In this document: in pieces, positions 31,366 through 52,573 of the stretch | Layout of the letters: every line of letters starts with the position of its first letter | Position numbering within the stretch: position 1 is the stretch's first letter | NCBI GenBank assembly: GCA_947646095.1 | Contig: CANSFI010000006.1 | Location: forward strand, 1 to 64,000 | Direction: 5' to 3' | Source: an uncultured Mycoplasmatota bacterium | GTDB lineage: Bacteria; Bacillota_I; Bacilli_A; RF39; UBA660 | DNA length: 64,000 nt | Made by a program: the position numbers and the translations under genes | The notes under the pieces: generated by a model | Seen by the model: only the letters and a program-made list of their open reading frames with translations | Databases searched by the model: none | What the model was told of the DNA's origin: nothing

Positions 31366-31394
31366 TTGACATTTTGTTTGTAAAACTCTATAAT
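31366..31394 (+). promoter_or_regulatory. Consensus sigma70 promoter (TTGACA-N17-TATAAT) for small RNA
   Basis: TTGACA 31366-31371, TATAAT 31389-31394. Confidence 0.85.
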
Positions 31395-31399
31395 TATAC

Positions 31400-31501
31400 T
31401 AGCGTGATAATATCACGCGGATGTTCTTATGCAAAACTGGTATAAGAGCATTCAACCAAAACCCCCTGAAGGAGCACGATTAGTTGTGCTCCACTTTTTT
31501 T
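31400..31501 (+). ncRNA. Putative small RNA: two hairpins, C-rich single-stranded stretch, intrinsic terminator
   Basis: gcgtgataatatcacgc; tgttcttatgc/gtataagagca; AACCCCCTGAA; ggagcac-gattagtt-gtgctccactttttt; no ORF. Confidence 0.65.
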
Positions 31502-31552
31502 GCCCTTAATTTATAAGGGTTTCTCGAAAAACCAAAACTAAAAAATGTGCTT

Positions 31553-31574
31553 TAGGTAGCAATTAGGTAGCATT
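31553..31574 (+). repeat. Tandem arm-like repeat, left end of element 1
   Basis: t-AGGTAGCA-att-AGGTAGCA, 11-bp period, matched at 39758-39776. Confidence 0.7.
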
Positions 31575-31647
31575 TTTTAGTTTTTTGATTATTTAAAAGC
31601 ATAAAAAAATAAGGAACTTGGCATATTAACCAAATTCCTTATTTCTA

Positions 31648-32820
31648 TTATAAACTCATTTCAAAGTCATCTTTATTGTTGATATTATCACAATCAATAT
31701 TTTGTTCTCTAGTATCATTTAATTTATCAATAAGACCAATGATATTGTCTAGTTTGTTCTTAAACATATGAGAATAGGTGTTTAATGTTTCATCAATTTT
31801 AGAGTGTCCTAGATATTTAGCAACAAGTGTTATGTCTGCACCATTATTGATAAGCAATGAAGCACAGGAATGCCTAAAATCGTGGATTCGAATAACTTTA
31901 ACACCTGCCTCTTTACATTTATTGTTTTTTCTTCTTCTAATGACATCATCTCCAAGAGGGGTAGCATTACCAAATATAAACCATTCTTCTTGAAAATTAG
32001 TATAACTCATAGCATTTTTTTTCAACTCTTTTAAATCATTTACTAATTCTTTTGGTATAGGTAGTGTTCTATTGCTTGTTAGAGTTTTAGGGCTTGTAAT
32101 CGTGTATTTTTTCCTGTTTACATTATCGTTAAGCCCTTTATTTATTCTAATTGTATTATTTGTAAAATTAATGTCATTCCAATTTAATGCTCGTGCTTCT
32201 CCTTTACGAAGTCCACAAAAGTATAAAGTTTTAAATAAGCACTTGAAAGTTAAGTTATCTTCTTTAGCGATAAATTTGCTAAATTCATCATAAGTCCAAA
32301 ATTCCATTTCCTTTTTAATTTCATTTGGATCTGTGAAGTTTGTCATTTTAGGATAAATTTCATTAAAATTTAAACCATACCACTTTGTACCAAAATTCAT
32401 AATTGTTTTTAAGAATTTATAAATATAGTTCCTAGTTCTATTTGATAAGGGATATTCTAAAATCTTTTTTCTCCACATTTCAAAGTGTTGTAAACTAAAA
32501 TCTTTAACCTTGATATTATCTAAAAGAGCCATATATCGCATTCTATCTTTATAGGTATTTAAAGTAGTTTCTTTTACTTTATCTTTTTGATATTCATAAA
32601 AGGCAAGATATAACTCTTTGAAAGTCATATTATTATCAGGTCTATATTTATCAAATTCTAAAGCAAAAACTTTTTCTGCTTCTTGAGCCTCTTTTTTGTT
32701 AAGAAATTTTTTTGATTTATATTGTTTTGTTTTACCATTTAAGTCTTTGTATCGTGTATAAAAAATCCATTTGCGACCATCTTTAGTCCATTCTTTTTTA
32801 TTCAATAAAATAACTGCCAT
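31648..32820 (-). CDS. int: Tyrosine site-specific recombinase/integrase
   Basis: GLRKGEARALNW, HDFRHSCASLLI, YLGHSKIDETLNTYSH. Confidence 0.95.
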   Translation of the reverse strand: MAVILLNKKEWTKDGRKWIFYTRYKDLNGKTKQYKSKKFLNKKEAQEAEKVFALEFDKYRPDNNMTFKELYLAFYEYQKDKVKETTLNTYKDRMRYMALLDNIKVKDFSLQHFEMWRKKILEYPLSNRTRNYIYKFLKTIMNFGTKWYGLNFNEIYPKMTNFTDPNEIKKEMEFWTYDEFSKFIAKEDNLTFKCLFKTLYFCGLRKGEARALNWNDINFTNNTIRINKGLNDNVNRKKYTITSPKTLTSNRTLPIPKELVNDLKELKKNAMSYTNFQEEWFIFGNATPLGDDVIRRRKNNKCKEAGVKVIRIHDFRHSCASLLINNGADITLVAKYLGHSKIDETLNTYSHMFKNKLDNIIGLIDKLNDTREQNIDCDNINNKDDFEMSL

Positions 32821-32824
32821 ATTA

Positions 32825-33031
32825 TCACAACCTTTCCATTTCTAATTCATTTTTGTTAGTATTTTCTAAATTAAAAAGAACTTTTTTATGTTCTTCTAAA
32901 GCCATTGTATGGTATTTTATACTTTTTTCATCATTTCTAGCTTTATCTTCTTTAAGTGATAATTCTAGTGATTCAATTATCAATTTTTCTTTTTCAATAG
33001 TAGTGTTTTTATCAATAATAATTGCCATCAT
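32825..33031 (-). CDS. Small hypothetical protein of element 1
   Basis: Compact gene context between int and mob. Confidence 0.6.
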   Translation of the reverse strand: MMAIIIDKNTTIEKEKLIIESLELSLKEDKARNDEKSIKYHTMALEEHKKVLFNLENTNKNELEMERL

Positions 33032-33045
33032 ATAAATGCTCCTTT

Positions 33046-34479
33046 CTACATTCCAATTTCATAATCATCTTTGTCTTTATCGTTATTTTTGTTATAGTAA
33101 CCATAGTTAATTGCGTCAGCAATATCTTCATAATCTTCTAAACGTTCTTTTGGTTTATCTCTATCTAAAACTTTGTCGATTGCCTTACACATTTTTTTAA
33201 ATAAATTTTTCCATTTCTCAACTTCTTTTTCAAATTTTATTTTCAAATTATCAATAGTATTATTTAAAATATCTACTAATTCACTTAATCTACCAATCTC
33301 TTGCTCTTGTTCATTGATAGTAGATTTTTGCTCCTTAATGATTTTATTTTTCTTGATTAGTTCGCTGTTATTTTTAAAAGTCTTATTTTCTTTTGTTAAT
33401 TTTTCAATCATTAAATCTTTGTTATTATTATCAGTAGATAGAATAACAACTTTGTTTTCTAGTCCTTTGGTGTATTCTATAATTTTAGAAACATCATTTT
33501 CTTTGAATCCACCAAGTTTTCTTTTTATAGGATTTAGTAAATCATTATCAACCTCTTTTTCTAGGTTTTTAAGACCATTTTTGGAGTTTTCAATTATTTG
33601 TAAGGTATTTTCCTTTTCTTTGTTTAATTCTTCTAATTCAGCCTTTTTTTCGGCTATATCATACTCTAATTTAGATTGATTTTGTTTGTTTGCTCCAATA
33701 TCTCCTCGATAGAGATTAAATCCTTTTTCAGTTATAAATTTATTAAAGTCATTTTGCATTTGATGAAAAGATAATTTACCACCTTTTTGTTTCCAAAATT
33801 GATCGCAATTTAGAAATTTGCCTTTGACTTCCTCATAGACAATTTTACCTTTGCTATCACGAAGTAATTTTGGAACAATAGTAGTAGAACCATCTTTCTT
33901 TTTAACTTCTTCTTTAACAACATTCCCATCTTTGTCTTTGATATAGCATTTTCTTTTAACCATATCTACAACAGGCAGAAAATATGCTTGAAGATGGGGT
34001 GTATCTTCATCATAGTGGATTTGTGCAAGAAGTATGTTTTCTTCACCCACATAATCTTTTAGAAATTCCATACAGGAATCAAAAAAGAAAGATACAGCAT
34101 TTGGTATATCTTCCTTTGATTTGATTTTTGGTATCATAACTGCTTGACCTTTTTTATCTCCTGTATGATAAGTTCTACCACTATCTATAAATTCCATTCC
34201 TAGTGCTTGAAAAAATTCAGGACCACTCGTAAATGTTACACCATTTAATAGATTAGTTTTTGTTCTATCTAAATATTCTATTTTTCTTTTTTTTAAATTG
34301 TATTTCACTTCTTGATATAAATTATTTTGAGTAAGTGAAACATATTCTATATTATATTCTCTACGTTCTATATCATAATTACCTGTACCTTTTCGGTCTT
34401 TCATTTCTACACCGATATTATAGAGATCATCTTTTTTATATTGTGTTTCTACTCGTACAACTTGTTTGCCATCATACAT
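33046..34479 (-). CDS. mob: MobV/Pre-type plasmid mobilization relaxase
   Basis: ILLAQIHYDEDTPHLQAYFLPV HxDE..PH motif; long C-terminal coiled coil. Confidence 0.9.
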   Translation of the reverse strand: MYDGKQVVRVETQYKKDDLYNIGVEMKDRKGTGNYDIERREYNIEYVSLTQNNLYQEVKYNLKKRKIEYLDRTKTNLLNGVTFTSGPEFFQALGMEFIDSGRTYHTGDKKGQAVMIPKIKSKEDIPNAVSFFFDSCMEFLKDYVGEENILLAQIHYDEDTPHLQAYFLPVVDMVKRKCYIKDKDGNVVKEEVKKKDGSTTIVPKLLRDSKGKIVYEEVKGKFLNCDQFWKQKGGKLSFHQMQNDFNKFITEKGFNLYRGDIGANKQNQSKLEYDIAEKKAELEELNKEKENTLQIIENSKNGLKNLEKEVDNDLLNPIKRKLGGFKENDVSKIIEYTKGLENKVVILSTDNNNKDLMIEKLTKENKTFKNNSELIKKNKIIKEQKSTINEQEQEIGRLSELVDILNNTIDNLKIKFEKEVEKWKNLFKKMCKAIDKVLDRDKPKERLEDYEDIADAINYGYYNKNNDKDKDDYEIGM

Positions 34480-34509
34480 TTAATTCCTCCTTTGCTCTTG
34501 CTTCTTTGA

Positions 34510-34585
34510 GGGGAAGGTCATTTATTGACCTATCTCACTAGGGCATAGCCCACGTGAGATTAGGGAACTCCCTAATAACCCCTTG
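34510..34585. other. Candidate oriT region with nested inverted repeats
   Basis: ctcac-ta-gggc-ata-gccc-ac-gtgag and tagggaactcccta directly upstream of mob. Confidence 0.45.
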
Positions 34586-34818
34586 CTTGTTTAATCGCAA
34601 AACACCTAAACTATCGTAAAGGTGTAATGCTTATAAACAAGATTAAATAATAAGCACCTACTAGGTACTTATCATTTAATAAATTATGAAAGAGTAGTAC
34701 TTTTCATAATTGTAAAAATATTCACTATCGCCACTTTCATTGCTTCGCAACAAAACGTGCCTCGTTCATTTTTTACCTATAACTTTTTTAAAAAAAGTTA
34801 CAAAAACTTTAACGAAAA

Positions 34819-35772
34819 TTATTCATTTTCGTTAATTGGTTCTTCATATTTTGCATAATAATTACGTTTTTTCCCAACACGTTTTTCTTCAATATGAAGT
34901 CCTTCCTTTTCTAAAATATCTAGGTTTCCATTAATTAATTTCCCAAATACTGATGGAGTGATTTGTAAGTTTAACTTGCTTGTCATTTCACTCATGGTAA
35001 AGGAAAATTCTTTTTGTTTAATCGCATAATTTAGAAAAGTTAGTATATTATAATTTAAGTCATCGCTCTCGACTTCTGATAGTTCAAATAATAAATTTTC
35101 ATTTCGCTTAAGAACTAAATCTAATCCCTCATAGTCTCTACTTTCGTAATTTAAAAGTATTTTATTCTTTATGTTGGAATCTTGTTTTAAAGTGATTTTT
35201 CCATCAACCAATCCATCAATAGCAGTACTACCTAATGAAGTATTATTTTTATTCAAGTGATGGACTAGAAGAATAGTAAAATCATACTTTTTACATAATT
35301 CTCTAAATTTTGGGAAAACAACTTGTCCTATATCTTGATAGTTATTTAAGTCATAGCCATTGTTTAAATCAATGCCACTAAACATATCTATGATTACAAA
35401 GTGACCTTTGTAGTCATTAGAAAATGTTTGAAATTGTAGTTGTAAATCCATTAAATTTAGTTTTCTTTCACTTGGATTTTGTTCTATCATAACGAAATTA
35501 TCATCATTAAATTGTAAGTTCATCTTATCAATTCTATCAACTAATTGCGTAGAATTCATTTCTGTGCTAATATATAAGACAGGAGATGGACTTGTCCTAA
35601 ATCCTAAAAAATTTGTTCCTGTTGCAATAGAGTTGGCAAGTTGTAACGCCAATAATGACTTACCAACTTTTGGTCTAGCAACAAGACAATATAATCCTTT
35701 AGATTTCATTAGGTTATCAACTATGAAGTCTTTTTTTGTTGCTTCTTTTCTCATTTCACTTATTGTTTTCAT
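34819..35772 (-). CDS. RepA/RecA-like AAA ATPase (AAA_25 type)
   Basis: LVARPKVGKSLLALQLA Walker A; VIIDMFSGID Walker B; LLVHHLNK. Confidence 0.85.
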   Translation of the reverse strand: MKTISEMRKEATKKDFIVDNLMKSKGLYCLVARPKVGKSLLALQLANSIATGTNFLGFRTSPSPVLYISTEMNSTQLVDRIDKMNLQFNDDNFVMIEQNPSERKLNLMDLQLQFQTFSNDYKGHFVIIDMFSGIDLNNGYDLNNYQDIGQVVFPKFRELCKKYDFTILLVHHLNKNNTSLGSTAIDGLVDGKITLKQDSNIKNKILLNYESRDYEGLDLVLKRNENLLFELSEVESDDLNYNILTFLNYAIKQKEFSFTMSEMTSKLNLQITPSVFGKLINGNLDILEKEGLHIEEKRVGKKRNYYAKYEEPINENE

Positions 35773-35785
35773 TTAAAACTCCTTT

Positions 35786-36025
35786 CTAGTTAATAACTTC
35801 TTTTGCCATTTTTTGAAGATAACTTATATTTATTTTGAGATAACTTACAACTTCATCCATAGGAAGTAATTTGTTAGGAAGTAAATAGCCTTTGTTTTCT
35901 AAATCAATTCTTATTTCATTTTTCAACTTGATAGCATTATTTTTTCCTAGCCCTGTAAGTTTTCTTAAATCATTTAGATCACACCATTGTTTTGATATTA
36001 AATTTAAAGTCTCTCTTGCATTCAT
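35786..36025 (-). CDS. Small DNA-binding/DUF3173-like protein
   Basis: LRKLTGLGKNNAIKLKNEIRIDLENKG. Confidence 0.55.
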   Translation of the reverse strand: MNARETLNLISKQWCDLNDLRKLTGLGKNNAIKLKNEIRIDLENKGYLLPNKLLPMDEVVSYLKINISYLQKMAKEVIN

Positions 36026-36399
36026 TGATTCACCTCTCTTTCTCTATACTATTGATGGTTTTAGTGTTACCAACAACTCCCTTTAAGGATGTATATATAG
36101 TGATTAGCCATATATGTAACGAAGATTTTAGTTAATCTACAACTCTCGTGCCAATAGAGGTATTTTGCCTTGCATTTGTTTAACGAGTCGGCAGAGTATC
36201 GGCGATGTCCAACTCTATTTAATTGTCAAAGAACTATTGAGGTTGTAAAAATGTTAAAATTGCAACCTTTAAGTTAATAATAAATCAACAAAAATTATTT
36301 GTCAATAAAAAAGTCGCAATTTTTATTAAAAAATAACTAAAAAGTTGCAAAAAGAATTAAAATGTGTTATATTTATATTGCGAAAGGAGTTTTATTCGT

Positions 36400-36921
36400 A
36401 TGAAAGACAATAATGAGACTGTTGGGCAAATGATAGCTCGAGCAAGAGAAGAGAAACACTTATCTAAAAGAGAACTTGCTAGAATTGCTAAAATAAGTGA
36501 TACTGAACTTGCTAGAATTGAATCAGGAGAAAGAGAAATACCAAATCCAAAAACATTAAGAAAGATTAGTACACATATAGGAATAAACTACAATGATTTA
36601 ATGTATGCAGCAGGACTAGGTTTTCAAGTAACTTCTTTAAATCCGTTTTTAATTAACTACTACGAACATTTAAAAGGAGATCAAATTGTCGATGCCATTT
36701 TAAATACTACATCAATGATTAAAAATTGGGAAGAATTAGTAACTAATTTTAAAGAAAGATTAGAAAAGGAAAAACTAACTGATTCTGAAAGAGAGGTAAT
36801 TTCACAAACGATTGAAGATACCGAATATCAAATTGAAACAGCAAAAGAAATTGTAAATGTTTTAAATAGTGCAAGAAGAAAGGAGGCAGTTGAAAATGAT
36901 AAAAAAAAGCAAAAGGATTAG
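36400..36921 (+). CDS. XRE-family regulator of element 1
   Basis: REKHLSKRELARIAKISDTELARIESGEREIPNPKTLRKI; SD AAAGGAG. Confidence 0.9.
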   Translation: MKDNNETVGQMIARAREEKHLSKRELARIAKISDTELARIESGEREIPNPKTLRKISTHIGINYNDLMYAAGLGFQVTSLNPFLINYYEHLKGDQIVDAILNTTSMIKNWEELVTNFKERLEKEKLTDSEREVISQTIEDTEYQIETAKEIVNVLNSARRKEAVENDKKKQKD

Positions 36922-37360
36922 TATAGGTGCTTTGTTAGTAAATTTGATTTTATTAACGTTGGCAATTTTGTGTACTATTTTAAAGAAAGATATATTTTAT
37001 GCTTGGTATTGGATGTTGGTTACTTTAATGTTATTATTTGAAGTGTTATATGTGTTTATTTGGAGTAAAGTTGGAAGAAACCTTGATAAACATAAATCAA
37101 ATACTATTAACAGATCGTTTAATGATGTAACAGCAGTATCTATCGTTTTAAGTGGTCTAATATATTTAGTGGTATTATTTTGTGAATTTTACAATAAGAG
37201 TATAAGTGCAAGTTCCTATGCTATATGGAGTATGTATCTTCTTATGAGTGTTGCAGTATTATTTAATTATCTTGCAGTATATAATGCCAATAAAGAAACA
37301 AAAGAACTTGTTGAAAAAATGTTTAATAAGAAAAATGACAGGAATGACAGGAAAAAATAG
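36896..37360 (+). CDS. Small membrane protein
   Basis: Several TM segments; start MIKKSKRISIG overlaps upstream gene. Confidence 0.65.
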   Translation: MIKKSKRISIGALLVNLILLTLAILCTILKKDIFYAWYWMLVTLMLLFEVLYVFIWSKVGRNLDKHKSNTINRSFNDVTAVSIVLSGLIYLVVLFCEFYNKSISASSYAIWSMYLLMSVAVLFNYLAVYNANKETKELVEKMFNKKNDRNDRKK

Positions 37361-37560
37361 GAGTACCCCTCCCAAAATTTGCTGTCATGCTGTCATAGGT
37401 ATTTTAAAAGGAGCATAAAAATTGCTCCTTTTTGCATATATAATTTAACATTTTGTATATTATTTTTATATTTGAATATACTATCACTATGAGATAGTGA
37501 GTTTAAGCTATTTTCCTTAATTTGCTGATAAAATTTATATGGTGGTAGATGATGAGACTT

Positions 37561-37764
37561 AATATGAAAGACTATACCAAAGGCGAGGCTATTAGAATTA
37601 TACGTGAATGGACTAATCTTACTCAAAAAGACTTTGCTAAACGTATTGGAAAATCAAAGCGAACGATAGAACAATACGAAGCAGGTACAGTCAATTATGG
37701 AGTAGAGGTCTTAAAAACCATAGCCAAAGAGTTTGATATAGATATTATAATTGAGAAAAAATGA
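37561..37764 (+). CDS. XRE-family HTH protein
   Basis: IREWTNLTQKDFAKRIGKSKRTIEQYEAG. Confidence 0.85.
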   Translation, partial: NMKDYTKGEAIRIIREWTNLTQKDFAKRIGKSKRTIEQYEAGTVNYGVEVLKTIAKEFDIDIIIEKK

Positions 37765-38223
37765 TTATTTAGTAATTTTAATTATACTATAATAGTCTAG
37801 CAAAATATCAAATATTGTATCTAGTGTTTTTGAAGTATCTTCTTCGTTATATTTTTGTGGTAAAGAAGAAAGAGATTTAAGCAAAGTGGTTGTTGTGTTA
37901 CTACTTTGTTTATTTTTTATATCATCATTTACAATTTTAAAGCAATCTTCAATTAAGTCTTTACTAGGTTTATTGTAACAAAATGATTTATATATAATAA
38001 ATTCCATATCATCATCTGTAATACTTGCTGAAAGAATATGACAGAATTTTTCATATACCCCATTTATTATTTTATCGACAAATGGCATAAGTTCTTCTAA
38101 TCGACTTTCAGGAATAATAATTCCAAAATAGCCACCTAGTGCAGTTGCTTTAAGGTCTATTAACCCTGTTAAATCATTATATGCTTGATTTACTACTTGA
38201 TTGATTATGGTATTGTTATCCAT
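37765..38223 (-). CDS. Hypothetical protein
   Basis: ORF with plausible start and stop, convergent with 37561-37764. Confidence 0.55.
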   Translation of the reverse strand: MDNNTIINQVVNQAYNDLTGLIDLKATALGGYFGIIIPESRLEELMPFVDKIINGVYEKFCHILSASITDDDMEFIIYKSFCYNKPSKDLIEDCFKIVNDDIKNKQSSNTTTTLLKSLSSLPQKYNEEDTSKTLDTIFDILLDYYSIIKITK

Positions 38224-38351
38224 AAATCCTCCTTTCGCAATGTAGTGAAGTCACTACCATATAAGTATAACATAATTCAGTTAGTTAGGCACAAAAGGTT
38301 GCTTATTTATGAATTTTTTTCTTCTATAATTTTTATTAGGAGAGTGATATT

Positions 38352-38588
38352 TTGAATCAGTATGCTGACTTTAATGAAAATATTAAGGCTGTTATCTGTC
38401 AAAACATCAAAAAATATAGAAATGAAAAAGGTGTAAGATTGATGGATCTTGCTGAAAAATTAGATGTATCAGTTAATCATCTAAAACGTATTGAGTCGGC
38501 GAATGATAGAAATAACATATCACTTATGACTTTATACAAGATTTCTATAATATTAGGTGTTAGAATAGATAAATTTTTTGAAGAATAA
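38352..38588 (+). CDS. XRE-family HTH protein
   Basis: NEKGVRLMDLAEKLDVSVNHLKRIESANDRNNISLMTLYKISIILGV. Confidence 0.85.
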   Translation: MNQYADFNENIKAVICQNIKKYRNEKGVRLMDLAEKLDVSVNHLKRIESANDRNNISLMTLYKISIILGVRIDKFFEE

Positions 38589-38682
38589 GAGTAGAATCGG
38601 TTTAGATTTTGCTTTTTTAATGCTATAATGTATATATCAACGTGTTATTCTAATAATAGATTTTTGAAATGGAGGAGTGATT

Positions 38683-39714
38683 ATGAAAAAAATACTATTA
38701 TCAATTTTAATATGTGGGATTATGGTTTTGGGAGTTGTAGGTTGTGGAAAGAAAGAACAAGAAAACGATAAGAAAACAACAGAGGATTATGATAAGGAAT
38801 TAGTGCAATGTTTAGAAAGTCAATTAGGAGGCTATCTTGTAACTGAAACAGATGATTTAATAGAAATACCTTTAAGTGAAATAAAAAGTAATGATAAAGA
38901 AAAAATTTCCTATTATAAAGGAGTATATGCTAGTAATCATCCAAATAATATTTATGTAATGGTTTACCCAAAAAATGGGACTTATGAATCTAGTGTAATG
39001 AAAGATTTTGATAAATATTTCTATAACAAATTTTCTATATATCAAACATATGAAAGTCCTTTAACTCCTACTATTTATATTCATAATCAAGACAATGATG
39101 TTGATTTTAAAGATATTGTTAATAAGTGTGTAGTTAAGAATAGCGATGATGGTAAATCGTTTCCAAATAATACATTAGATAAAATAAATAATACTACAAA
39201 AATAGTTATAAAATCTAATCAAGAAGAATTAGGAACAATAAGTGACAAAGACAAATTAACAGAAATTTTAAATGCTATTTCAAGTAGTAAACAATATGGA
39301 GACGCGTGCTTACTTGATAATTATGCGTTTGAATTTGAAATGCATGATAACAATAATAAATTGATTGATACAATTTATGTTTGGGGAGATGGCAATAGGT
39401 TAATTCCAAAAGACACGAAAGGTTGTTATTACTCAATATCTAATGGTACAGATTTAAGAAAAATCATTGAAAAAGAAACAAAATATATATTTTATGGCAT
39501 TTTGGATTATAGAGATAATGATAATCAAAAAGAACAATTAATCTACAAAGATGATAAAAATAGTTATTATATAAAGAGTGATGACACTAATGAAATAGCA
39601 ATCAAATTTATGTTAAACAATCAAATTATGACTCTTAAATATGCTTTAGAAAACAAATATATTTCAGCAGAAAAAGTGGCAAAAGATTATCCTGATGTAT
39701 TGATAAAAAAATAG
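38683..39714 (+). CDS. Putative lipoprotein cargo of element 1
   Basis: Lipobox-like GIMVLGVVGCGKK. Confidence 0.75.
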   Translation: MKKILLSILICGIMVLGVVGCGKKEQENDKKTTEDYDKELVQCLESQLGGYLVTETDDLIEIPLSEIKSNDKEKISYYKGVYASNHPNNIYVMVYPKNGTYESSVMKDFDKYFYNKFSIYQTYESPLTPTIYIHNQDNDVDFKDIVNKCVVKNSDDGKSFPNNTLDKINNTTKIVIKSNQEELGTISDKDKLTEILNAISSSKQYGDACLLDNYAFEFEMHDNNNKLIDTIYVWGDGNRLIPKDTKGCYYSISNGTDLRKIIEKETKYIFYGILDYRDNDNQKEQLIYKDDKNSYYIKSDDTNEIAIKFMLNNQIMTLKYALENKYISAEKVAKDYPDVLIKK

Positions 39715-39756
39715 AGTTTTATTATAGTAAATTACAAGTTGTTATTTTTGAATTTT

Positions 39757-39780
39757 CAGGTAGCATTTAGGTAGCAAAAT
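39757..39780 (+). repeat. Tandem arm-like repeat, right end of element 1
   Basis: c-AGGTAGCA-ttt-AGGTAGCA-aaat. Confidence 0.7.
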
Positions 39781-39890
39781 TCTAAACTTTTATATTTATG
39801 ATTTAATTTATTTTAATCAAAATTGGGAAAAAATAAACAAAATACAAAGAAAAATAAAGTTTTTAAAATTAAATAAACCAAAATTTAATA

Positions 39891-39932
39891 GCCCCCTGAA
39901 GAGGACATTTAACCGTGTCCTCATTTTTTTGT
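39891..39932 (+). terminator. Probable displaced native 3' end of the small RNA at attR
   Basis: gCCCCCTGAAGaggac-atttaacc-gtgtcctcattttttt, same layout as 31462-31501. Confidence 0.55.
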
Positions 39933-40019
39933 CCTAAAATAAGGGGGTGCAATAAATTTTATTTTATATTATTATATAAAGCAAAAATATTGAATTGTTT
40001 TAAATGGAAGGTGATATTA

Positions 40020-40157
40020 TGACTGAGATTGAAGAAGATATTTTTGATATTGCTAAAATTGATGAGATAGATATTCGTCCTAAAACAATAAATGGATTGA
40101 TAAAACAGAAGGAATATAAGGAAATAATGCATAACATCAATTATGATTGGCTTTAAT
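40020..40157 (+). CDS. Small hypothetical protein (45 aa)
   Basis: GGAAGGTGATATTATG; MTEIEEDIFDIAKIDEIDIRPKTINGLIKQKEYKEIMHNINYDWL*; followed by terminator agattaccaa...ttggtagtctttttt. Confidence 0.5.
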
Positions 40158-40479
40158 TACAGTTTTTTGGGGGAGATTACCAAGTTAAAATTGGTAGTCT
40201 TTTTTGAAGTATAAAAAAAACAACTCTGTACTAGCAGTTGTTATAATTTGATAATTATTGAAAGCATTTTAAATATTTCTTTTTACTATTATATGTTCGA
40301 AATATAGATTCATAATTTGTATTAAAATATTTGGTGTCTTCTTCATAAAAATACTCTGATGTGTGTTTTTTTTCTATATTTGCTCATTTCAATATGACTA
40401 TTTATGAAAAAGTTATATAGTTTTTTGACTATCTTTTTATAAGTTCTTAAATGTCGTTATAACCTTTATTTATAAGCAT

Positions 40480-44338: not shown

Positions 44339-44376
44339 TAAGTGGGGCGAGTGGCGTAGCCACTTAAGCCCCCACC
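44339..44376. repeat. Accessory inverted repeats beside the Rep origin
   Basis: AGTGGC-gta-GCCACT nested within gtgggg...cccccac. Confidence 0.75.
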
Positions 44377-44405
44377 ATATAAGGGCTAGTATTACCCCTT
44401 ATATG
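44376..44405 (+). other. CRESS-type replication origin stem-loop with nonanucleotide TAGTATTAC
   Basis: CATATAAGGG-CTAGTATTAC-CCCTTATATG: perfect 10-bp stem, nonanucleotide at 44387-44395. Confidence 0.9.
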
Positions 44406-44423
44406 TAGCATGTAGCATGTAGC
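44403..44423 (+). repeat. Three tandem 7-bp iterons next to the origin
   Basis: ATGTAGC x3. Confidence 0.85.
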
Positions 44424-44519
44424 AATAATTTTTATAAATTTACCTTAATGTTAATCTTGCTACTATTTAAAACAATAGCAAGATATAACAAATCGGTAGT
44501 TAATAAGTTAATTAGTAAC

Positions 44520-47581: not shown

Positions 47582-47607
47582 AAAAGTAGTAAATTAGTAG
47601 TAAAATC
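47582..47607 (+). repeat. Element 2 end/arm-type repeat, right copy
   Basis: CAAAAGTAGTAAATTAGTAGTAAAAT. Confidence 0.75.
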
Positions 47608-47753
47608 ATTTTAAATTTTTATATATACGCCTTAAAATAAAGGCTTTTACTCAAAAACTAAACTTTTAATAAAAAATTTTATAAAAATGCTACCTAAAAT
47701 CATAAATATTGCTCATAAAATGATATAATGTTCATATAGATTGAGGCTTTACT

Positions 47754-50353: not shown

Positions 50354-52351
50354 TTAATCTAAATCATTTGATTTTTCTATTACTTCTTTAATATAAGCAT
50401 ATTTAGAATCTTTATAATAATTGCTTTCTAAAAATTCTAAGCTATCTTCCTTAGCTTTTTTTAGTATATTGAAATCTTTTTTCATATCAGCTAAACTAAA
50501 AGACATATCACCACTTTGTTTTACGCCAAATAAATCTCCACTACCACGAAGTCTAAAATCTTCCTCACTTATTTTAAAACCATCTGTAGTTTTAGTTAAA
50601 ACATTTAATCTTTCAGTTTCTTTATTACTAATTAAAATACAATATGATTGCAGATCATTTCTACCTACTCTTCCCCTAAGTTGATGTAAAGCAGAAAGAC
50701 CAAATCTAAAAGCATCGAAAATAACCATCATAGTTGCATTAGCAACATCAACACCAACCTCAATTACAGTTGTACTGATAAGAATTTGAATTTCATTATT
50801 TTTAAATTTTTCCATTATTTCATCTTTTTCATTAGAACTCATTTTACCATGCATTACTCCAACATTATAATATTTACCAAAAGCTTTATTCATTTTCTCT
50901 TCAAGTTTATTAACATTTTCTAAATCTATTTTATCACTCTCTTCAATTAAAGGAGCTATTACATATATTTGATGATTACTTTTAAGTTCTATAAGCATTT
51001 TACTTAAAACATCAGTAATTTCTTGTTCTTTCCTTAAATAAGTTATAATTTCTTTTCGACCATTTGGCATCGTTTTAATGCTAGATATGTCCATATCACC
51101 ATATAAAGTTAAAGCATAAGTTCTAGGTATTGGAGTTGCACTCATATATAAAATATCAGGAGTAAGACCTTTATTTTTTAAGTTACCACGCTGATTTACT
51201 CCAAATCTATGTTGCTCATCTGTAATAACAAGACCTAAATTATTATATTTAACATCATCTTGTATTAATGCATGAGTTCCAATAATAATATCTATTTCAC
51301 CATCTTCTAAAGATTTATATATTTTTTTCTTATCTTTAGCCTTTGTTTTTCCTGTTAAAAGTTCAATACTAATATCATAATTTTCAAATAACTTTTTAAT
51401 ATTTGAAAAGTGTTGACTGGCAAGAATTTCTGTTGGAGCCATCAGTGCTCCTTGATAACCACTTAAATAATTAATATATAGAGATATTATAGCCACAATT
51501 GTTTTTCCACTACCAACATCCCCTTGTAAAAGTCTATTCATTCGTATTTTATCTATTAAATCATTATAAATATCTTCTACACTTTTTATTTGATCATCAG
51601 TTAATTTAAAAGGTAGTTTATCTATAAATTCCAATACCTTAGTATAATTAACATCTCTTTTCAATCCTATTTTATCATTTTTATTATTTTTAAGGTAATT
51701 CATTTTTAACATAAATATAAATAATTCTTCATATTTTAAACAATTTAAAGCTTGTTTAAATAATTTATAGTCTTTAGGATTGTGTACAATTCTAACACTT
51801 TCTTCTTTTGATAAAAAGTTATATTTTTCATTTAAATATTTTGGAATATAACTAGTTAAGTTTATATCTTCCTTTAATATTTCTTCTATATATAAATTTA
51901 AATGTTTACTGGTAATACCAGATATACTATGATAAACAGGTTCTATTGTTGGAATATCATTTAATCTTTCAAACCTTAATTCACTAGCTATTACACTATT
52001 ATGCTTTTTATCATATTTTCCTATTATTGTAATAGTTGTTCCAATACTAAGCTTATTTTTTAAAAATCCCCTATTAAAAATAGTTACATTTAATAAGTGA
52101 GTATTGGTATTTAATCTAAAAGACATCTTGTCTAATTTTTTATTAATATGAAAAACAGTTGGTTTAGTTTCTACTATACCATCTATAATAATCTTATCAT
52201 CCTGTTCAAGTTCATATATATTACTTCTTTTATAAATATCATAACGAAATGGAAAATAAGTTACTAAATCAAAACTATTATTAATACCTAATTTATTTAA
52301 TAAAGTTAAAGTCTTTGGTCCTACACCTTTTAAATCTGATAATTGTTTCAT
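50354..52351 (-). CDS. recG: ATP-dependent DNA helicase RecG
   Basis: LLQGDVGSGKTIVA, TDEQHRFGV, MSATPIPRT, QLRGRVGRN. Confidence 0.97.
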   Translation of the reverse strand: MKQLSDLKGVGPKTLTLLNKLGINNSFDLVTYFPFRYDIYKRSNIYELEQDDKIIIDGIVETKPTVFHINKKLDKMSFRLNTNTHLLNVTIFNRGFLKNKLSIGTTITIIGKYDKKHNSVIASELRFERLNDIPTIEPVYHSISGITSKHLNLYIEEILKEDINLTSYIPKYLNEKYNFLSKEESVRIVHNPKDYKLFKQALNCLKYEELFIFMLKMNYLKNNKNDKIGLKRDVNYTKVLEFIDKLPFKLTDDQIKSVEDIYNDLIDKIRMNRLLQGDVGSGKTIVAIISLYINYLSGYQGALMAPTEILASQHFSNIKKLFENYDISIELLTGKTKAKDKKKIYKSLEDGEIDIIIGTHALIQDDVKYNNLGLVITDEQHRFGVNQRGNLKNKGLTPDILYMSATPIPRTYALTLYGDMDISSIKTMPNGRKEIITYLRKEQEITDVLSKMLIELKSNHQIYVIAPLIEESDKIDLENVNKLEEKMNKAFGKYYNVGVMHGKMSSNEKDEIMEKFKNNEIQILISTTVIEVGVDVANATMMVIFDAFRFGLSALHQLRGRVGRNDLQSYCILISNKETERLNVLTKTTDGFKISEEDFRLRGSGDLFGVKQSGDMSFSLADMKKDFNILKKAKEDSLEFLESNYYKDSKYAYIKEVIEKSNDLD

Positions 52352-52439: not shown

Positions 52440-52468
52440 TTGACAAATTAATCTTTTTGAATTAATAT
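52440..52468 (+). promoter_or_regulatory. Putative sigma70 promoter for small RNA
   Basis: TTGACA 52440-52445, N17, TAATAT 52463-52468. Confidence 0.6.
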
Positions 52469-52472
52469 ATAC

Positions 52473-52573
52473 AGTACCAATTCGAATTAACGGATTGGCA
52501 TGCTAGTATCACACTAGCCAACCCCTTTTTATTCTTTTATGGGACAGTTCTCAGGGGGACTGTTCTTTTTTGT
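52473..52573 (+). ncRNA. Putative small RNA: two hairpins, CAACCCC segment, terminator
   Basis: ccaattcg...cggattgg; gctagt-atcac-actagc; ccaacccc; ggacagt...actgttcttttttg; no ORF. Confidence 0.55.

Follow-up and report, generated by a model that had tools for sequence, protein, structure and literature searches.

An integrative and mobilizable element (IME) of 8,430 bp, element 1, has very probably recombined into the gene of a predicted small RNA, sRNA A, at the short core CCCCCTGAA, exchanging the terminator of the host gene for one borne by the element. In the proposed course of events, the tyrosine integrase would recombine an attP core CCCCCTGAA with the identical core in the chromosomal sRNA A gene, the exchange point lying between an unpaired C-rich stretch and the terminator hairpin. 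Because the element's terminator lies immediately 3' of its core, integration would retain the sRNA body and add an element-encoded terminator to it. The promoter, hairpins and C-rich stretch of sRNA A would thereby be kept in place and the RNA gene would stay whole, with the former host terminator left orphaned at the far, right-hand end of the element, by the same logic as in islands that restore the 3' end of their target tRNA gene. Catalysis is presumably due to the integrase of element 1 itself, the RNA would be made and would work in both states, and excision would be expected to restore the original arrangement.

Boundaries, gene content and class of element 1

In the window (the whole 64-kb stretch of DNA analyzed), the original prediction had placed two copies of CCCCCTGAAG, and both were recovered on the + strand at 31462-31471 and 39892-39901. 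By sequence comparison these are the two ends of element 1, which spans 31462/31471 to 39891/39901, each junction consisting of a 9-10 bp core followed by a terminator; the right-hand limit first given (39932) was about right. No further copy of CCCCCTGAAG was found elsewhere in the window or in the 1.38-Mb genome, and the number expected by chance is 0.01 per window. The features of the region are listed below, where the G344 copy is the counterpart of element 1 in a genome of another genus.

31366-31394, +: predicted sRNA A promoter, TTGACA-17-TATAAT, 12/12 matches to the sigma-70 consensus
31402-31418, +: sRNA A hairpin 1 (GCGTGATAATATCACGC), position and complementarity kept in relatives, stem letters changed
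31419-31453, +: sRNA A hairpin 2, 14-bp stem, stem letters varying in relatives with complementarity kept
31454-31470, +: unpaired conserved C-rich stretch AACCAAAACCCCCUGAA, putative seed (fold and alignment)
31462-31470, +: attL core CCCCCTGAA(G), left crossover region (core pairing and junction comparison)
31471-31501, +: predicted element-borne replacement terminator of sRNA A, the left end of element 1, which recurs elsewhere
Termini around the core CCCCCTGAAG: right end ...TTTAATAG before the core, left end GAGCACGATTAG after it
31552-31572, +: left integrase-arm-like repeats, TTAGGTAGCA twice with an 11-bp period, unit also at the right end
31648-32820, -: tyrosine integrase (Arm-DNA-bind_4, SAM-like and Phage_integrase domains)
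32825-33031, -: 68-aa ORF, kept in the G344 copy
33046-34479, -: MobV/Mob_Pre relaxase (Mob_Pre E 3.8e-10)
34819-35772, -: AAA_25 / DnaB-like ATPase (domain search)
35786-36025, -: 79-aa ORF, kept in sibling elements
36400-36921, +: Cro/CI-type HTH regulator (domain search)
36869-37360, +: putative membrane protein, start codon uncertain, kept in the G344 copy
37549-37764, +: small HTH regulator (domain search)
37765-38223, -: 152-aa ORF, function unassigned, kept in the G344 copy
38352-38588, +: small HTH-like ORF, kept in the G344 copy
38683-39714, +: cargo, lipoprotein-like protein, kept in the G344 copy
39758-39778, +: right integrase-arm-like repeats, AGGTAGCATTTAGGTAGCA, 11-bp period, unit shared with the left end
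39861-39891, +: right end of element 1 (...AAATAAACCAAAATTTAATAG), conserved among five junctions with a pairwise identity of 0.99 over 30 nt
39892-39900, +: attR core CCCCCTGAA(G), right crossover region (core pairing and junction comparison)
39901-39931, +: orphan terminator, either the one displaced from sRNA A or an older insertion's left end, no upstream + strand promoter-like site
50354-52351, -: recG, the usual upstream neighbor of sRNA A in relatives
52474-52571, + (conserved region 52440-52571): predicted sRNA B, divergent from recG, its terminator holding UCAGGGGG, complementary to CCCCCUGA of sRNA A

The integrase combines a Phage_integrase domain (E 1.7e-27) with the Arm-DNA-bind_4 and SAM-like domains, and the relaxase scored 78 bits with the NCBIfam MobV model, below that model's cut-off of 100. 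No conjugation-pore family was found among the ORFs tested between the cores, and the lipoprotein-like cargo gave no family match. Element 1 thus carries its own site-specific integrase and a relaxase without a mating-pore system, and has short direct repeats, CCCCCTGAA(G), at both ends; by gene content and site use it is classed as an IME with putative mobilization. Element 1 does not fit the Tn916 family, the integrase lacking PF02920 (the Tn916-type integrase DNA-binding domain), and its integrase is not of the integron (IntI) type, the integron-integrase model giving 55.7 bits, far below its cut-off of 265.

The tandem TTAGGTAGCA lies 90 bp inside the left end of element 1, and its repeat unit recurs 134 bp inside the right end. 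Several sibling elements have a private repeat unit of their own at both ends at similar offsets, as in the G344 copy (TTATGTAACA), L206 (AACTACCCAT) and L090 (CTACCCATCA); the same repeat test gave a tandem on the left only in L092, L205 and L089, and L085 and L075 have arm-like repeats at the right end only. A private repeat common to both ends looks like the arm-type sites of tyrosine integrases and may be bound by the integrase.

sRNA A and the exchange of its terminator

The left copy of the core had been described as attached to a promoter and 5' hairpins and the right copy as an orphan 3' end, each followed by a stem and T-tract of like layout and different stem sequence, and this description holds. 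On the left, the 12/12 promoter and two hairpins precede the core, and promoter-like sequence is found at the equivalent place in other copies of sRNA A. The 107-nt RNA starting at 31397 is predicted to fold at -40.6 kcal/mol (z = -7.4 relative to shuffles) into three hairpins with AACCAAAACCCCCUGAA unpaired, so that an unpaired CAACCAAAACCCCCUGA precedes the terminator. The left terminator has a 9-bp stem GGAGCACGA/TTGTGCTCC at 31471-31492 followed by ACTTTTTTT, and GGAGCACGATTAGTTGTGCTCC forms the present, element-side 3' end of sRNA A in the window. The right terminator has an 8-bp stem at 39901-39922 followed by ATTTTTTT, and no + strand promoter-like site for it was found in 39715-40260. 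Both terminators fold at z about -4.1, and the last G of GAAG is paired, so that the stems begin slightly differently from the notation first used. At the gathering score, neither sRNA A nor sRNA B had a match in Rfam (seven loci searched), the sole Rfam match in the window being the ssNA-helicase RNA; the two are predicted sRNAs that have not been described before.

A BLAST search with the left region first revealed sRNA A outside the window, and genomes throughout the GTDB family proved to have it, in most cases directly downstream of recG. On comparative grounds sRNA A is a gene of the host: 62 distinct copies were collected, and recG lies just upstream in 42 of the 52 copies with enough flanking DNA (the ten exceptions include the window). 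The sequence CCCCCTGAAG was invariant in 46 aligned copies, an invariance that is partly by construction as the copies were collected by that 10-mer. Structures were taken from per-sequence folding; MAFFT misaligns the variable stems, and RNAalifold and the covariance model R1, which was without pairs, were left unused. The terminator stems comprised 22 different sequences in 47 copies, with the layout, stem length and T run kept. Such very variable, element-borne stems would be compatible with a reprogramming of the sRNA upon integration, the element terminators altering its level or stability to the benefit of the element. The retention of layout, stem length and T run whatever the letters looks like conserved function and speaks against this reading, which is considered unlikely, and a replacement that leaves the RNA gene whole is preferred.

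Uninterrupted loci, in the order recG, sRNA A, one terminator and then ordinary genes, were found in six genomes of other species (L188 in G014, L192 in G027, L193 in G138, L194 in G062, L197 in G155 and L200 in G072), and neither a related integrase nor a second exact same-strand core was present in the 10-15 kb fetched downstream of each. No uninterrupted locus retaining both terminators was seen in the relatives examined. The original prediction had further expected that, in genomes free of the element, the 5' part of the sRNA would join directly to the right-hand terminator; relatives do present sRNA A with a single terminator followed by ordinary genes, but no locus was found in which the species' own 5' part continues into AGGACATTTAACCGTGTCCTC, the genus being represented by one other genome in which the contigs break at the site. 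In that genome (G001), one contig ends at the core of sRNA A (L004 / L230, end of C5) and an orphan core lies about 110 bp short of the end of a second contig (L237, end of C3), which suggests an unassembled element at the sRNA A site.

At occupied loci, an integrase homolog faces sRNA A on the opposite strand within 400 nt in 14 of 39 cases, often followed by MobV and AAA_25 genes. The closest counterpart of element 1, in G344 of a different genus, is 90% identical with the same gene order and almost the same length (8,427 vs 8,430 bp), and sits in the sRNA A gene of G344 with another sRNA 5' part and another right-hand terminator. These data bear on the converse arrangement, in which the sRNA would belong to the element with its promoter and 5' part, and the "orphan" would be the true chromosomal 3' end. 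The position of the window's sRNA A, away from recG in a block with the element that is inverted relative to relatives, would fit such an arrangement. It is nevertheless rated very improbable, given the recG-sRNA A loci of several genomes that have promoter and terminator without a related integrase or second core, and 5' parts that are host-specific while the region between the cores is 90% identical.

With sRNA A as the host gene, the junctions locate the crossover. Between the window and G344, identity drops from 95% to 41% across the right core. This was further observed for the five element-1-type right ends, whose 0.99 identity over 30 nt before the core falls to 0.45 after it, for another right-end family (n = 8; 0.85 before the core, 0.31 after) and, in the opposite sense, for one left-end family (n = 5; 0.46 before the core, 0.98 after). 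In G110 (L195) and G237 (L218), the left end of element 1 recurs attached to unrelated sRNA 5' parts. The base preceding the core is that of the sRNA on the left and that of the element on the right, and the terminator attached to the sRNA follows the element's left end rather than the host sRNA. At L206, the core on the terminator side reads CCCCCTGAAA, with A at position 10, and the right end of the element reads CCCCCTGAAG, with G; the crossover therefore lies 5' of position 10, within CCCCCTGAA. The left-end terminator of the G344 copy differs in its stem letters from that of the window, so left ends appear to evolve or recombine quickly and a change of stem need not mean an integration event. 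As orphan terminators of similar type (AGAGAGCATTTAACCGTGCTCTC) adjoin other elements, the orphan at 39901 could have belonged to the host gene originally or could be the left end of an earlier insertion. Neither a circular attP nor an excised copy was found in viral contigs searched with two right-end patterns.

Taken at its starting point, the prediction of an integration into the 3' end of the sRNA gene with a replacement terminator is borne out by these steps at the core, by the other genera and by a terminator that moves with the element, and the exchange can be read directly from the compared junctions. An explanation of the paired 10-mers by chance or by ancestral duplication of a terminator-proximal motif, with elements gathered there without site-specific recombination, is hardly credible. 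It could draw on the shortness of the core (9-10 bp) and its presence on the antisense strand of sRNA B, a 10-mer alone being no definition of an att site; against it stand the chance expectation given above, the occurrence of CCCCCTGAAG in 110 of 146 family genomes, far above the reversed control and often as same-strand pairs, and the change from conserved end to variable flank, which falls exactly at the core in several independent families. The notion that every 10-mer is an att site was rejected separately: about 17 copies among those fetched proved to be the antisense strand of sRNA B (terminator loop CUUCAGGGGG), and others sit inside other sequence. Site-specific recombination at the sRNA A core remains the favored account, and from the compared loci this core is a recurrent landing place, or integration hotspot.

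Other units at the hotspot and a possible role of sRNA B

Core-bounded units each starting with a terminator were also found at L203, L085, L080, L075, L084 and L077, many of them without an integrase of element 1's family and with defense-like genes. The defense-like cargo includes PDC-S02/DUF1016, AbiD, AbiE with a primase-helicase, an Ec107-like retron RT with an ATPase, an EcoRI-type methylase with a restriction gene, Tmn and an AbiL-like ATPase, as identified in a scan of twenty proteins picked by eye from which no enrichment is claimed. Together with L187 and L056, the same six loci hold defense-like genes in core-bounded units that lack an integrase of this family and follow either sRNA A or an orphan core. 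As L085 and L075 have arm-like repeats at the right end only, units of this kind may be immobile remnants or may have been moved in trans.

The second predicted sRNA, sRNA B, has its own promoter and terminator, and 129 of the 146 family genomes carry its signature; among the genomes of a class-wide draw, the 49 that had the signature all belonged to the family of the element's host. Among the B tails, 51 of 66 matching sequences hold at least TCAGGGGG, complementary to CCCCCUGA of sRNA A. The predicted duplex between the unpaired stretch of sRNA A and the window's sRNA B has an energy of -17.3 kcal/mol, which none of 500 mononucleotide shuffles of sRNA B reached. The G run of the window's sRNA B is partly paired within its own terminator hairpin, and the loop sequence is missing from some genomes. 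Pairing between sRNA A and sRNA B is thus a suggestion.

A broader reading that joins these observations is tentative and would have sRNA A serve as a modular accretion platform at CCCCCUGA, where units each place a terminator before one or a few genes, many of them for anti-phage defense, and where integrase-less units are moved in trans by the integrases of sibling IMEs. In the same reading, the C-rich stretch would be conserved because sRNA A pairs with the terminator loop of sRNA B (UCAGGGGG), and the elements would thus exploit an interaction site that the host cannot easily mutate.

Relation to known integration systems

In islands that target tRNA genes, the 3' part brought in by the island has to match that of the host. 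Element 1 is unlike these in that the part it supplies is conserved in shape only, its letters differing freely. The insertion lies inside an RNA gene that the element reconstitutes, as judged from sequence and predicted structure; the supplied 3' part is not identical to the displaced part, only 9-10 bp being shared and the stem letters differing. The use of an RNA gene as target, a crossover before the 3' end, an element-supplied 3' part and repeated accretion of variable cargo at one site are common to element 1, to tRNA/tmRNA islands and to tycheposons (PMC10872708).

IMEs are known to target the 3' ends of tRNA genes and of housekeeping protein genes (PMC5704250). Element 1 resembles the reviewed elements in having a single tyrosine integrase at one end, a MobV relaxase, no mating-pore genes, short direct end repeats and a specific insertion at the 3' end of a host gene (PMC5704250). 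It differs from them in its target, an sRNA outside Rfam, in the replacement of a whole terminator hairpin and in a core identity of 9-10 bp; sRNA targets are unmentioned in that review (PMC5704250). The use of sRNA genes as attachment sites is already known from enterobacterial prophages, a passage of PMC5502288 citing 17% of prophage sites in S. enterica as lying in sRNA genes. The present case differs in phylum, in involving IMEs and defense-bearing units, and in a terminator exchange traced across many genera. With Tn916-type elements, element 1 shares a tyrosine integrase with an arm domain and direct repeats resembling arm-binding sites near both ends; unlike Tn916, it has one specific target site, and its integrase falls outside the Tn916 DNA-binding family, whereas that of the neighboring element 2 falls inside it.

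Phrase searches of the literature, with most subscription papers outside their coverage, returned no comparable case. What is new is the small extent of shared target sequence, only 9-10 bp, with the remainder of the restored 3' end conserved in shape alone. The locus is a well-supported example of an interrupted RNA gene whose restored end need keep its shape and not its sequence, a terminator being able to act as an interchangeable end of an attachment site. The analysis also defines a specific integration hotspot and two predicted sRNAs in a large family of relatives within the class Bacilli, which have small genomes and are mostly uncultured, and marks the hotspot as a place to seek mobile defense genes in that family. 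The loci may further be used as natural exchange experiments, in which one sRNA body is joined to many terminators, for the study of terminator effects on sRNAs.

Further observations concern the surroundings of element 1. The window segment 31340-50353, in which sRNA A and the elements lie, has the opposite orientation to its counterpart in relatives, where the order is recG > A > island > g171 > NfeD > SPFH, and only short matches of low significance, with no long inverted repeats, were found at the ends of the inverted block (31.3k; 47.4-50.5k). Beside element 1, element 2 (40480 to about 47700) encodes a Tn916-type integrase (PF02920) with a Tn916 Xis, a Viral_Rep-type Rep, a sigma-70-like protein and an ORF that appears FtsK-like by eye with no Pfam family, and contains the ssNA-helicase RNA at 44375-44424. 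At about 47582-47676, a stretch of ~95 bp is repeated with 74-88% identity at five other places in the genome (twice on C1 and once each on C18, C19 and C37) and is perhaps the end of a multicopy element.
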